Below, piece after piece: positions 12,366 through 19,344 of a stretch of 60,986 nt of DNA. Position 1 is the first letter of the stretch. Each line of letters opens with the position of its first letter. The position numbers and the translations under genes are program-made. This stretch comes from Fimbriimonadales bacterium. GTDB lineage: Bacteria > Armatimonadota > Fimbriimonadia > Fimbriimonadales > Fimbriimonadaceae. The notes under the pieces are model-generated. The model had not been told where the DNA came from, did not search any database, and saw nothing but the letters and a program-made list of their open reading frames with translations. The stretch spans positions 1 through 60,986 of the forward strand of contig JAOACB010000012.1 of assembly GCA_026418055.1 (NCBI GenBank), in the 5' to 3' direction.

Positions 12366-12539
12366 TCAGTGGCCCCGCGCGCCGATGCTCTGTTGCTCCT
12401 CCGCCGAGAAGCCCTTCTGCTTCATGCTCTCGTCCAAGCTCGCCGGCTTCATCGGGGTGCCCTCTTGGTCCGGGTGAGGCCCGCAACCGAGCAACACGCT
12501 GAAGCCGAGGAGCAGGGCCGACGTTAGTCGGACGACCAC
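12366..12539 (-). CDS. Tiny lipoprotein, function unknown
   Basis: 57 residues from GTG 12539, starting inside the 3' end of the prepilin-like gene (16-nt overlap), so co-translated with it. The N-terminus is a lipoprotein signal, LTSALLLGFSVLLGCG, with lipobox LLGC (Cys 19). The mature part is short, charged and probably helical: KPASLDESMKQKGFSAEEQQ. Too short to assign. Its position makes it part of the phytase/pseudopilin locus. Confidence 0.6.
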   Translation of the reverse strand: MVVRLTSALLLGFSVLLGCGPHPDQEGTPMKPASLDESMKQKGFSAEEQQSIGARGH

Positions 12540-13333
12540 GTCTTCCCCCAGAAGCGGAACAGGTTGCGCTGCTCCATCAGGTCGCAGTATTGAGCGACCG
12601 TGGAGGCTTCGGTCTTGGAAGAGTCGAGACGGCTGTAGCCGATGAACTTCTCGCGCCCGAACTTGGCGGCGTGGCCATCGGCGTACGCGCCGACCATCTT
12701 GGCGTTCGGGTAGTCGCGGCGGGAATCCCACACGAGCTGGTCCCAGCTCCAACCCGTGGCGTACTCATCGATGTACGGCCAGGACGCGTTGCGGGCGAAG
12801 AACCGCATCCACGAGTAGTTCAGGTTGGCGTAGCGGGTGGGCGCGATGGCCAGCCGCTCCGCCGGGCTCTCGATCGCCGTGAGGCTTCGGACGCCGTTGG
12901 ACTGGCTCCAGTTGATGGACTGGCAAGTGCCTCCCCAGCTGCGGGAGTAGCCGTCGGTGTTGAGGCTGAACGTGGTGACCCACTGCCACTTGTACACGTA
13001 CCCTGGGTAGAACGGGTCGGCGAAGTCGTCGCCGCCCGGGTCCTTCTTGAGCGGGTCGAAGAAGATCTGTCGGTTCTTCACGTAAGGGAACACGTCGCCG
13101 ACCCACGTGTCCGTGTGCTGATAGCTGGTGCCGTACTCGAACACCGCCATGTCGTCGTAGTCCGCCGAGTACATCGGCAAGGCCAGCGCCAGCTGCTTGA
13201 TCTGGCTGGTCGCCGTGGAGACCTTGGCGGCCGCCTTGGCTTGGGCGAACACCGGGAAGAGGATCGCGGCGAGGATGGCGATGATCGCGATGACCACCAA
13301 GAGCTCGATCAGGGTAAAGGCCCGTTTGCGCAT
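12524..13333 (-). CDS. Prepilin-type H-X9-DG (DUF1559-like) secreted protein 1
   Basis: 269 residues. Starts [20 protein letters not shown]: a class III signal with cleavage after Ala and Glu5 of the mature helix, followed by the [12 protein letters not shown] extension. The globular part has aromatic-rich segments (WVGDVFPYVKNRQIFFDPL) and a C-terminal NAKMVGAYADGHAAKFG that aligns with the prepilin H-X9-DG motif but lacks the His. Probably processed by the prepilin peptidase and exposed outside through the type II/IV-pilus pathway. Shine-Dalgarno GGAGGTG lies 5 nt before ATG, and a four-unit Pho-box-like array precedes it. Confidence 0.8.
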   Translation of the reverse strand: MRKRAFTLIELLVVIAIIAILAAILFPVFAQAKAAAKVSTATSQIKQLALALPMYSADYDDMAVFEYGTSYQHTDTWVGDVFPYVKNRQIFFDPLKKDPGGDDFADPFYPGYVYKWQWVTTFSLNTDGYSRSWGGTCQSINWSQSNGVRSLTAIESPAERLAIAPTRYANLNYSWMRFFARNASWPYIDEYATGWSWDQLVWDSRRDYPNAKMVGAYADGHAAKFGREKFIGYSRLDSSKTEASTVAQYCDLMEQRNLFRFWGKTWSSD

Positions 13334-13366
13334 GGAACACCTCCAAACCGAGAGAACCCTATGGTG

Positions 13367-13405
13367 GTTAAGCTGAGGTTAGAACTCAAAGAAGCTCCAG
13401 TTAAG
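13367..13405 (-). promoter_or_regulatory. Pho-box-like array, four hexamers at 11-bp period
   Basis: Reading the minus strand, hexamers CTTAAC (13405-13400), CTTCTT (13394-13389), TCTAAC (13383-13378) and CTTAAC (13372-13367) start exactly 11 bases apart. TAGGGT at 13361-13356, a possible -10, falls on the next 11-bp step. The direct-repeat, 11-bp geometry is that of PhoB/PhoP boxes. The array lies 34-72 bp upstream of the first prepilin-like gene. Confidence 0.6.
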
Positions 13406-13581: not shown

Positions 13582-14454
13582 CTACTCGTTGAAGATCGGA
13601 GTCCAGCCCTTGACGCGGACGTTGTCTCCGCCCTCGGTGGTAGGCGGGAACACGAGCAACGGGATGCCCCTGCTGTCGACGCTGCACTCGCCGTTCGGGC
13701 CCCAAGTGGTCTTGCGCCACTTGGCGTGGCCATCCAGGTAAGCGATGGTGGTGCCTCCGTTGTGGCCTCCGAGCGTGGGGTCGGCGTTGACCGGGTCAGG
13801 ATAGATGCCGGTGCAGTCCTTCGTCCGGCTGTACAGCTCGTCGAGCTCGTCTCCCTCGATCTCCGAGTCGGTGGCCTCGAGCAACAGGAACGACTCCGCG
13901 GGCGACTGCCAGGCGCTCATGTTCGAGCCACCCGGAAAGTCGCAAATGTGCTCGTTGTACGAGTAGGTGGTCCAGTACTGGATGCTCCTGCAGCGACCGC
14001 CGCTGAAGTTGGCGCAGGTGAGGCCCCAGGACTGCGCCGGCTGAGGCCAAATGCACGCCGCTCGGGCGCTCGCGAGGTCCTGCGGGTTGTTCTTCGGTGC
14101 GTTCGGGTTCCAATAGAAAGCGTCGCTCGCCTTGGTCTTGTCCTGCGGCTGCTGCTTGATGTAGGGCTGGAACAGCCACGGCCAGTAGTAGCCTCCCCAA
14201 CGGTTGATGCGGCCTACGGACATCGTGGGGTCCGAGGGGCAGAAGTTGACCAGCGGATCGCTGGGCAGCATGTCGTCGTAGTCGCCGGCGTACATGACGG
14301 CGGCGAGCCCCAGCTGCTTGAGGTTAGACAGGTTCTGGGCCTGCTTGGCGGCGGCCTTGGCCTGGGCGAACACAGGGAAGAGAATGGCCGCCAGGATGGC
14401 GATGATCGCGATCACCACCAAGAGTTCGATCAGAGTGAACGCTCGAATTCGCAT
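13582..14454 (-). CDS. Prepilin-type H-X9-DG (DUF1559-like) secreted protein 2
   Basis: 290 residues. N-terminus [20 protein letters not shown] with [20 protein letters not shown], then a DYDDMLPSD turn typical of this family. Near the C-terminus [18 protein letters not shown] is a textbook H-X9-DG motif (His, nine residues, Asp-Gly). Several cysteines ([25 protein letters not shown]) suggest disulfides in the exported domain. SD GGAGGTG before ATG. Its own three-unit Pho-box-like array overlaps the phytase stop codon. Confidence 0.85.
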
Positions 14455-14477: not shown

Positions 14478-14505
14478 AACAAGTCTATGTGAAGAGACCG
14501 TTAAG
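14478..14505 (-). promoter_or_regulatory. Pho-box-like array, three hexamers at 11-bp period
   Basis: On the minus strand CTTAAC (14505-14500), CTTCAC (14494-14489) and CTTGTT (14483-14478) start exactly 11 bases apart, followed by a possible -10, CAATAA (14476-14471). The array overlaps the end of the phytase gene by 5 bases and lies 23-51 bp before ATG 14454. Confidence 0.6.
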
Positions 14506-15538
14506 GGAGCCGCGCCCGAGCCGAGAGTAGGCCCAAGATCGGCTCAAACCCTGCGACCAGGTAGTTGCGGCCCTCGCTGTTCATGACCGCCAGTAGGCCT
14601 TTCGGGTAGCCCGGCAAAGGATGGGAGGTGCAGTCCAAGCCGTCCGTGTCGTCGGCTCCGAGCCGCAGGCGGGCCAGCAGGGCGTGCGGGCTGCGCCGGT
14701 CATACACGAGCACCTCGCTGCCGCCTTTCAGCTGGTTGCTGGACAGCAGGAACCCCCTCCCTTCTCCCAGGTCGTAGATGGCAAGCCCCTCGCGGTCCCC
14801 TTGGTAGAAGCGGTGGCCGAACTCACCCAGCTGCTGTCCGAAGCGCGGGGAGGCCGGGTCGGCCACGATCTTGCGCAGAGCGTAGCCCTCGTCGGCGTAG
14901 TGCACCACGCCCCAGAAGTCGTCCACGACGATGGCCTCGATCTCCCCCTCGCCGGAGAAGCGGCCGGCGCGGCCGATCGGCACGCAGTCGACGCGCGGAC
15001 CGTTCGGGACGAGGCGGTACACGCCGAGGTAGCCCTCGGTCGGACCCTCTTTGGGGGACACGAACGCGAAGATCGATCCGTCGGAGGGCCTGCGGTAGAG
15101 GCCGATGCCCATGGGCGCTACCCGCTCGCCGGGTTCGCCGACGAACACGTCGGTCTTGCCGCTCACGTCGCGCAGGGTTTGGGTGCGCGGGTCGATGGCG
15201 AAGATGCGCAGACGGCGCTGCAGGCGCTCGGTGGCCACGGCGATGTCCACCGGCCTGCCCTGCAGCCGCAGGCCGTACTCGACGTCGACGTTGTTCGGTC
15301 GGTCGATCCCGAGGATCTTCTGGCGAACCTTGCCGTCGAGGCCGTAGACATACAGCCCTCCGGTCGGCGCGGCTGTCTTGTCGTTGCCGATCAGCAGGCT
15401 CTGGGCGGGCCGCTTCGGGTGGATCCAGATGGCCACGTCATCGGCGTCGTCGGCCACAGCCTCCAGACGGAGGCTCGGGGCCACATCGTGCACGGGTGCT
15501 TGGAGCAGGGCGATCGCGCAGAGCAGCGTGGAGATCAT
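14501..15538 (-). CDS. Beta-propeller phytase (3-phytase)
   Basis: 345 residues with an N-terminal signal peptide (ISTLLCAIALLQAPVHD). Family signatures of the six-bladed calcium-dependent phytase: DADDVAIWIHPKRPAQSLLI, NDKTAAPTGGLYVYGLDGK, PNNVDVEYGL, GEIEAIVVDDFWGVVHYADE, YQGDREGLAIYD, and MNSEGRNY. It would release phosphate from phytate (inositol hexakisphosphate) outside the cell. The start is 88 nt downstream of prepilin-like gene 3 with a palindrome between, and no Pho box of its own was seen, so expression may depend on readthrough. SD AAGGA about 11 nt before ATG. Confidence 0.9.
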   Translation of the reverse strand: MISTLLCAIALLQAPVHDVAPSLRLEAVADDADDVAIWIHPKRPAQSLLIGNDKTAAPTGGLYVYGLDGKVRQKILGIDRPNNVDVEYGLRLQGRPVDIAVATERLQRRLRIFAIDPRTQTLRDVSGKTDVFVGEPGERVAPMGIGLYRRPSDGSIFAFVSPKEGPTEGYLGVYRLVPNGPRVDCVPIGRAGRFSGEGEIEAIVVDDFWGVVHYADEGYALRKIVADPASPRFGQQLGEFGHRFYQGDREGLAIYDLGEGRGFLLSSNQLKGGSEVLVYDRRSPHALLARLRLGADDTDGLDCTSHPLPGYPKGLLAVMNSEGRNYLVAGFEPILGLLSARARLP

Positions 15539-15626: not shown

Positions 15627-16589
15627 CTACTGAACCGGCTGACCAGTGAGCGGATCGATGACCTGGCTGCCTCCCAGAGAATAGGCGATGGTCCCCCACA
15701 GGTAGCGGTTCGGCGAGAAGGTCCGATAGGAGTCGACGAACTTCGCGCTCGTGTCGGCGAACACGTAGTTGTTGCCCTTGTTGAACCGGCCGGGATGGGC
15801 GTAGCGGATGGTCAGGTCCAGGTTGCCCGTCACACGGACGCCTTCGTTGCACCGCCAGACCGCGCTCAGCGTCTGGGGGGTGATGGCCTCGAACGGCAGG
15901 TCGCTGGCCGAAGGCAGCTGCGTGCCGCTGTAGTCGCGCTGGCCGCGCCGAGCGATTCCCAGGGCGTTGCGATACGTGCGGAACTCGCCGCCCGGATCGC
16001 GCTGCAGGCAGAAGGGCGCCTCCGACATCGCCGACAGCAGGATGATGCCGGACGGGTTCTCGACGATCGTGGCGGACACGGGCTGGGCCGTGTCGGACGG
16101 CTGGCGCTTGCGCGGCATGAGCAGCTGGTTGCCGACGTAGGACAGCCGTCCGACCTGCAGCGTGTAGGTGCCGGGCACGTAGTTCTGCTGGACGCACCCG
16201 TTCGTCTGCACGCCGGGAGCTCCGAAGCCGCGGTTGTTGGTGGCCTCGTCCCAGCAACCGGGGGCCCAGCCACCGTTCTTGTCGGCGGGGCTGACGAAGA
16301 TCTGCTCGTTCTTGACGTAGGGCAGCACCATCCACGACCAGTGGACCTCGATCGGGCCCGCGTCCGTCGCCACGCGGTGGTTCGCCACCGGGTAGACGTC
16401 GTCGAAGTCGTTCAGGTAGATCTGCAGGGCGGTGGCCAGCTGCTTCGTGTTGCTCAGGTCGGCGGCCTTCTTGGCGGCCATCTTCGCTTGGGCGAACACG
16501 GGGAACAGAATGGCGGCCAAGATCGCGATGATCGCGATCACGACCAGCAGTTCGATCAGGGTGAAGGCGGAACGCCGCACGAGGCACAT
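15627..16589 (-). CDS. Prepilin-type H-X9-DG-like (DUF1559-like) secreted protein 3
   Basis: 320 residues. [20 protein letters not shown] starts a class III signal; GTG at 16580 would give the more usual MRRSAFTLIEL. The body has NTKQLATALQIYLNDFDDVY, a Cys pair (GCWDEATN, TNGCVQQN), and a C-terminal YAHPGRFNKGNNYVFADTSA, an H-X9-DG relative with Asp-Thr in place of Asp-Gly. No Shine-Dalgarno is visible; ACTAAT ends 5 nt before ATG, so the message may be leaderless. Two Pho-box hexamers precede it. First gene of the phytase unit. Confidence 0.8.
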   Translation of the reverse strand: MCLVRRSAFTLIELLVVIAIIAILAAILFPVFAQAKMAAKKAADLSNTKQLATALQIYLNDFDDVYPVANHRVATDAGPIEVHWSWMVLPYVKNEQIFVSPADKNGGWAPGCWDEATNNRGFGAPGVQTNGCVQQNYVPGTYTLQVGRLSYVGNQLLMPRKRQPSDTAQPVSATIVENPSGIILLSAMSEAPFCLQRDPGGEFRTYRNALGIARRGQRDYSGTQLPSASDLPFEAITPQTLSAVWRCNEGVRVTGNLDLTIRYAHPGRFNKGNNYVFADTSAKFVDSYRTFSPNRYLWGTIAYSLGGSQVIDPLTGQPVQ

Positions 16590-16613: not shown

Positions 16614-16630
16614 GTTAAGACAACGTTAAG
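16614..16630 (-). promoter_or_regulatory. Pho-box-like tandem CTTAAC repeat
   Basis: Two perfect CTTAAC hexamers on the minus strand (16630-16625 and 16619-16614) separated by GTTGT, an exact 11-bp period. A possible -10, ACTAAT (16600-16595), is 13 nt further and 5 nt before the ATG of prepilin-like gene 3. The region is shared with the divergent SGNH hydrolase gene. Confidence 0.65.
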
Positions 16631-16638
16631 GCGGGCCA

Positions 16639-16706
16639 GGGTCCCAGCGGCAAACAGGCTGGGATCCCTCGGCCAGCCAACCTCCCTCTGTTACCGCAGA
16701 GGGAGG
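16639..16706 (+). promoter_or_regulatory. Two successive hairpins in the SGNH hydrolase leader
   Basis: Hairpin 1 pairs GGGTCCCAGC (16639-16648) with GCTGGGATCCC (16658-16668, one bulge). Hairpin 2 is a perfect 10-bp stem, CCTCCCTCTG (16681-16690) with CAGAGGGAGG (16697-16706). The only purine-rich ribosome site, GGGAGG at 16701-16706, lies inside the second stem, 13 nt before ATG. Translation could therefore be gated by folding. Confidence 0.5.
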
Positions 16707-17390: not shown

Positions 17391-19344
17391 ATGACTTCGC
17401 TTCTCGCTCTCGGTTTGGCGGCCTCGCTGCCCGGTGCCGGACAGGGATTCGTGCTGCAGGCGGGTCCCGAGTGGATCCCCATCCCGATGCCGATGGACGT
17501 GGTTCGAGGTTCGGCGCTCGATTGGGCCCCGCGCCGTCCCGAGCCGTGTGGAGCGCGGGGCTGGCTCATCGTCAACCGACAGGGCAAGTTCGCCTTCGAG
17601 AAAACGCCGGACCGCGAGGAGCGCTTCTACGGAGCGAACCTCTGCTTCTCCTCGATGTTCATGAACAAGCGGGAGAGCGAGAGGCTGGCGCGGCGGCTCG
17701 CCGCGATGGGCTACAACACGGTGCGGCTGCACCACTATGACGGAGAGCTCACGAACGATGCGGATCCCCGCGACAGCACGAGGATTTCTCCGGAAAAGCT
17801 CGACCGACTCGACTACCTCGTGTCCCAGCTGAAGAGGCAAGGACTGTACGTCTCGATCGACCTGTACACGATCCGGCGCATCCGCCCCGGCGAGGTGCTC
17901 CCAGGGGAGACTGGGATGGACGAGTTCAAAGCCCTGCTGCTGGTGTCCGAAAGGGCTCGGGAGAACTGGTTCCGGTTCGCCCGAAACCTGCTGGAGCACA
18001 AGAATCCGTACACCGGATTGGCGTGGAAGGACGATCCGACGATCGCGTGGATCTGTTTGGTCAACGAGAACAACTTCGGCAGCGCGGCGCGCGGCCTTTC
18101 GCCGCAAGGGAAGGGCCTGTTCGACGAGGCCTACCGCAAGGACGGCCATGAGGGCGGATGGCAGTGGGGCACGCAGGAGGGCGCTCTGTGGGCTTCGCGC
18201 AAGCACGCGGAGGCGTTCCGCTGGATGCGCGACCGCCTTCGCTCGATCGGGGTGCGCGCTCTGCTCACCGACAACAACGGGTGGTACAACCAGCAAGGCC
18301 TGTTGCTGAACCGGGAGCAGCTGGATTACGTGGACGACCACTTCTACTGGGACCACCCCCGCTTCCTGGGCGACAGCTGGGGCTTGCCCTCGCAGGGATG
18401 GCAGGTGGGACGCAGCGCCATCCCCGAGGTCGGCGGCGGCCTGCGAACGATGGGCCTGACGAGGCTGGACGGCAAGCCGTTCACGTGCACCGAATGGAAC
18501 TTCTCGTCGCCGAATGCCCACCGTATCGAGGGAGGCCTGCTCGCGGGGGCGATCGCCGCGCGCCAAGCCTGGGACAGGTCTCTGGCGGTTCGCATGGTCG
18601 CACGACGCCGAGAACGTGCGGAGACCTCGCCCGATCAACTACTTCGACGTGCAGTCCGATCCTCTGCAGCAGGCGAGCGAGAGGGCCGTGGTGGCGCTGT
18701 TCCTCAAGCGGCACCTCGCTCCCTCGCCGGCCTCGGCGGTCGTGAGGCTGGATCCGATCGGTCACGCGCACTGGGCCTATGCCTCGCCGATCACGGAGCA
18801 GGTGTTCACGCGCCGATACTCGACCTCCTCGGCAGAGGGTGGGGACGGCAACGTCCCTCCAAGCGGAACCCCCGCGCCGGTTTCCGTGGATCGGGAGAGG
18901 GGCACGCTCACCGTGGCATCGCCGCAGACCTGTGGCGTCGTGGGCCCCGCTGGCAGCGACCTGACGGCCGGCGTGTTGCGGGCCGAGTTGCGGGAGGCCT
19001 TCGCAGCCCTGTGGGTTTCCTCGCTCACCGGCAAGCCCCTCGCCGAGAGCGAGCGCGCCCTGCTGGTGTTCGCGACCGACGTGCAGAACTCCGGCATGCG
19101 CTACCGGGCGGCCGACCGCCTCGTGTTGGAGGCTTGGGGCGACGTGCCGCACCTTGCCCGCCGCGGGTCGGCGAGGGTGAGCCTGGCCCTCAGCGAACCG
19201 CAGAACGTGGAGTTTCACCGCCTCGACCTGGCAGGCAGGCGCGTGGCCAAGGTTCCAGCTCGCGTCGAGCAGGGCAGGCTGACCTTCCAGGTCGCGATCG
19301 CACCGGACTCCCCAACCTTCTACTACGAGCTGGTGAGGCGCTAG
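17391..19344 (+). pseudogene. Clan GH-A glycoside hydrolase interrupted by one frameshift
   Basis: The reading frame is intact from ATG 17391 to about 18575, then continues in another frame to the stop at 19344; removing one base (the A at 18576 in TGGGACAGGTCTC) joins them as ARQAWD-GLWRFAWSHDAENV. The joined product would be about 650 residues: signal peptide, a TIM barrel with acid/base Glu in LVNENNFG and nucleophile Glu in FTCTEWNFSS, then a C-terminal beta-domain. This resembles GH5/GH42-like enzymes. It may be a sequencing error or a recent mutation. The end overlaps the convergent sialidase stop by four bases (CTAG). Confidence 0.75.

Follow-up and report, generated by a model that had tools for sequence, protein, structure and literature searches.

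A putative extended Pho box of four 11-bp-phased hexamers upstream of a prepilin-like gene in a Fimbriimonadales bacterium

Four hexamers in 11-bp steps precede a prepilin-like gene at 12524-13333 in a 60,986-nt stretch of DNA, here called the window. We read the array as an extended operator of the PhoB/SphR type that activates this gene under phosphate limitation, with a probability of roughly 0.87 on the sequence data. The identification as a Pho box, already proposed in the initial annotation, survives because the motif was derived separately at pstS, is found again upstream of pst, pho and phosphatase genes and keeps its hexamer phase in relatives. Counted against the extended box were a poor second unit, a weak -10 element, a PhoB-like protein below the PhoB cut-off and the absence of a convincing array at some distant homologues.

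Results

Prepilin-like genes flank the array on either side, at 13582-14454 and 12524-13333. Its hexamers CTTAAC, CTTCTT, TCTAAC and CTTAAC start at 13405, 13394, 13383 and 13372 on the minus strand, each step being 11 bp; hexamers, starts and phase without slippage, as first annotated, were all exact on re-check. Matches are given against CTTAAC.

13400..13405, minus strand: array unit 1, CTTAAC, 6/6; CTTAAC also in both sister species
13389..13394, minus strand: array unit 2, CTTCTT, 3/6, degenerate; GCTGAC and TTTGAC in the sister species
13378..13383, minus strand: array unit 3, TCTAAC, 4/6; GTTAAC in the sister species
13367..13372, minus strand: array unit 4, promoter-proximal, CTTAAC, 6/6; CTTCAA in the sister species

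The array total of 19/24 was the top 11-bp four-unit score on both strands of the window, and no four-unit score above 16 was reached anywhere in it at any other spacing between 7 and 16 bp. In 60 replicates of the window drawn from an order-1 Markov model, no score reached 17. For the 130-bp region upstream of 12524-13333, dinucleotide-preserving shuffles gave p = 0.0005, the lowest value that 2000 shuffles allow. CTTAAC is found five times in the window (67.8% GC), with starts at 16630, 16619, 14505, 13405 and 13372, all within three 11-bp-phased boxes; none was found on the plus strand.

The motif was derived from pstS, which in this genome stands behind a perfect box at G000:C77:3140 and whose homologues were gathered in 40 relatives. 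An 11-bp-spaced pair scoring at least 9/12 was present in 24 of 29 pstS upstream regions, and one scoring at least 10/12 in 20 of 29. In a unit matrix built from 44 units of 22 pstS upstream regions, T, T, A, A and the final C were nearly invariant, and the first C was present in 29/44. The pstS box of the order (Fimbriimonadaceae and relatives, Armatimonadota) is given as CTTAAC-N5-CTTAAC, two units without further phased ones. TAnnnT began exactly 10 bp 3' of the last unit in 11 of the 22 regions, and at any other distance at most once.

Measured against this motif, unit 2 of the array was counted as a weak site at best because it has no AA, the dinucleotide present in 44/44 pstS-derived units; it may be non-functional. 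The four-unit array of the initial annotation stands as to phase and has the best score in the window; unit 2 (3/6, no AA) does not count as a good site. The same annotation placed a possible -10 element on the next step of the array. This element, TAGGGT at 13361-13356, begins 5 bp after unit 4 and is doubtful, since its distance to the box disagrees with that at pstS. A weak element at the pstS position is the likely -10 of 12524-13333.

13351..13356, minus strand: candidate -10 TTCTCT, weak; begins 10 bp after unit 4, by the position rule of the pstS promoters

Orthologues carry GATTCT, GAATCT, GACACT and AATGCT at this position.

Array conservation was examined upstream of orthologues or close homologues of the target, which were found in relatives and in further assemblies. 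The two sister species carry CTTAAC-GCTGAC-GTTAAC-CTTCAA and CTTAAC-TTTGAC-GTTAAC-CTTCAA, with phase and start-codon distance as in the window. Four weaker units in phase were seen in G019, G012, L202 and L209, the last two being further independent cases of a phased array, and three units were seen in G020. Shuffle p was 0.0005 in 7 of 12 homologues, that of the window included, and the signal was specific to the 11-bp step. G005, G009 and G011 showed one strong pair instead, and no convincing array was found upstream of the distant homologues L204, L208, L210 and L211. The initial annotation had staked its reading on conserved hexamer phase, and the phase was indeed kept, with four units in both sisters and in four more distant relatives and a shuffle p of 0.0005 for each of these that was put to the shuffle test. 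Phase is retained while single units wax and wane, which fits an operator under selection. The distribution also hints, in a sample too small for proof, that a larger number of units can make up for weaker ones and the reverse. That selection at the target gene maintains several weak half-sites in phase rather than a single strong pair, so that site number is traded against site strength, is a tentative proposal.

It is rather unlikely that only the proximal pair TCTAAC-N5-CTTAAC functions, as at pstS, and that CTTAAC and CTTCTT further upstream are, in this species, what is left of an ancestral array with more units. The missing AA of unit 2, the two-unit pstS boxes of the order and the single strong pair at the target orthologues of G009 and G005 agree with such an arrangement. 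Against it, unit 1 is a perfect, in-phase CTTAAC in 3/3 species of the genus; four-unit scores were significant in the sisters, G012, G019, L202 and L209, where the inner units are better; and in G027 a Porin_O_P gene stands behind a perfect array of four units.

The genes surrounding the array and the boxes that precede them are as follows.

12524..13333, minus strand: target, a 269-aa prepilin-like protein; N-terminal methylation motif PF07963, E=2.7e-8
14489..14505, minus strand: two-unit Pho box CTTAAC-N5-CTTCAC, before the prepilin-like gene 13582-14454
13582..14454, minus strand: prepilin-like protein, preceded by a box of its own (14489-14505); PF07963, E=5.8e-7
16614..16630, minus strand: perfect two-unit Pho box CTTAAC-N5-CTTAAC, before a prepilin-phytase pair
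15627..16589, minus strand: prepilin-like protein, whose gene comes first after the 16614 box; PF07963, E=2.4e-7
14501..15538, minus strand: beta-propeller-type phytase, PF02333, E=2.1e-36; 89 bp behind the prepilin-like gene 15627-16589, same strand

The cluster thus runs from a prepilin-like gene (box at 16614) through the PF02333 phytase and a second prepilin-like gene (box at 14489) to the third, which carries the four-unit array. The phytase is likely co-transcribed with 15627-16589. In the sister G002 (L058) a boxed prepilin-like gene and the phytase are followed by the array and the target orthologue, and in the relatives L065, L068 and L074 a box lies directly 5' of the phytase gene. 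Phytase is a plausible phosphate-starvation enzyme, and the cluster therefore makes sense as a Pho-regulated unit.

The N-methylation motif gave 59 matches in this genome. Forward 11-bp boxes of at least 10/12 were present in 6 of the 51 prepilin upstream regions scanned, and at any other spacing between 7 and 16 bp the same 51 regions gave 0 or 1. The four-unit score of 19 was unique among them to 12524-13333. The target also showed weak DUF1559 similarity (PF07596, below cut-off). Its AlphaFold2 model (12 orthologues) had a mean pLDDT of 45.9, with confidence limited to the vicinity of the N-terminal helix and a short C-terminal stretch.

Two further features were seen near the cluster. An inverted repeat, GGGTCCCAGC...GCTGGGATCCC, at about 16639-16668 adjoins the 16614 Pho box in the space that separates divergent genes and is possibly a terminator or operator. 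The GH5-like gene 17391-19344 on the plus strand looks frame-shifted: the frame from 17391 becomes implausible near 18550 and coding goes on sensibly in the frame of 18514-19344, by a real shift or an assembly error.

Exact boxes numbered 65 in 41 genomes, versus 9 for a reversed control pattern. At the loci retrieved they preceded pstS, pstB, phoU, DUF47/PhoU_div, a PhoB-like operon, alkaline phosphatase, metallophosphatase, Porin_O_P (phosphate-selective porins) and several prepilin-like genes. In the genome of the window, boxes with two mismatches numbered 25 and matches to the control pattern 15; most of these boxes were left out of account because they carried little information.

The best PhoB match of this genome was the protein at G000:C48:32547-33209 (TIGR02154, E=2.4e-73), whose 246 bits lie below the curated cut-off of 296; matches for PhoR-like kinases likewise fell below cut-off. 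A perfect box opens the operon that holds this PhoB-like gene, which suggests that the operon is autoregulated. This protein is the most likely candidate for the regulator of the array.

Binding by a different OmpR-family regulator whose site is similar, rather than by the phosphate regulator, is improbable. Many OmpR-family regulators do bind direct repeats of similar period, and the genome encodes a second full-length member (G000:C85:15095-15748); yet the box precedes pstS, pstB, phoU, alkaline phosphatase, the porins and the PhoB-like operon itself, and its consensus equals the known SphR box. Chance phasing of similar hexamers without function, to which the 3/6 unit and the ease with which short repeats arise would lend themselves, was rejected as barely credible on the shuffles at their floor, the Markov replicates and a phase that is specific to 11 bp and repeated in other lineages.

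Two observations concern regulator genes. A conserved gene with a box, encoding about 372 aa and showing weak Biotin_lipoyl/RnfC_N similarity only, lies directly 5' of the PhoB-like regulator (L002:261-1376, minus strand; also L177, L178, L180 and L186). At G000:C113:65392-65805 (L164), an OmpR-family response-regulator match contains an internal TAG and is perhaps a decayed paralogue.

Discussion

In the mechanism that we propose, each hexamer would be a half-site to which a response regulator of the PhoB/SphR type (OmpR family) binds, and the half-sites would follow one another head-to-tail at every 11-bp turn, a short way upstream of the promoter. When phosphate is limiting, tandem dimers of the phosphorylated regulator would line up on one side of the helix, perhaps with cooperativity, and would recruit RNA polymerase to the poor -10 at about 13356-13351, so that the gene would be switched on. 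Four units may give stronger induction, as was first suggested, or a lower threshold. More units may also do no more than compensate for weak ones, because several orthologues have four weak units and others one strong pair.

The cyanobacterial SphR box, CTTAACCT, has an 11-bp period and consists of three or more 8-bp tandem repeats separated by 3-bp linkers (PMC1906773). The boxes described here share with it the core CTTAAC, the period, the head-to-tail order, the frequent presence of more than two units and a position before pst and phosphatase genes; the SphR box also precedes nuclease genes. They differ in phylum, in the two-unit form at pstS, in the prepilin-like target and at +7/+8, where the letters are A-rich or C here and CT in SphR. 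The E. coli PhoB Pho box consists of two 11-bp direct repeats (PMC4415409, PMC1906773). The 11-bp direct repeat units and, at pstS, the last unit 10 bp 5' of a TAnnnT -10 are common to both, whereas the core is CTTAAC here and CTGTCAT there, and up to four units occur here. For PhoP of Streptomyces coelicolor, a summary in PMC4415409 describes complex Pho operators of direct repeat units. The variation between promoters in number, organisation and conservation of units is similar to that seen here, and the core (GTTCACC in Streptomyces) and target genes are different.

The type of switch is already known; the prepilin-like target, which was unexpected, and the phylum, which is little studied, appear unreported in the literature searched. 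That search, which covered few subscription papers, gave no relevant paper on DUF1559 and phosphate or on a Pho regulon in Armatimonadota, and likewise none on Bacillus PhoP core regions. The findings point to a phosphate-starvation regulon with a defined box in a phylum for which the literature searched shows none. They also link a handful of many unexplained prepilin-like proteins to a condition in which expression would be expected. The orthologous arrays, two to four units of differing strength at one gene, form a natural series that suits the question of how a response depends on the number of PhoB half-sites and on their quality.

Other arrangements of the hexamer were seen in relatives. 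At L197 (G027:C1:10715-10753), CTTAACATTCC x3 and CTTAAC in 11-bp steps make up the perfect four-unit array before the Porin_O_P gene. L190 (G035:C115:33-70) has four CTTAAC in steps of 11, 10 and 11. In another family of the order, L061:3730-3790 and L070:3500-3560 hold Pho-box arrays placed back to back where two genes diverge, one of the two being prepilin-like.
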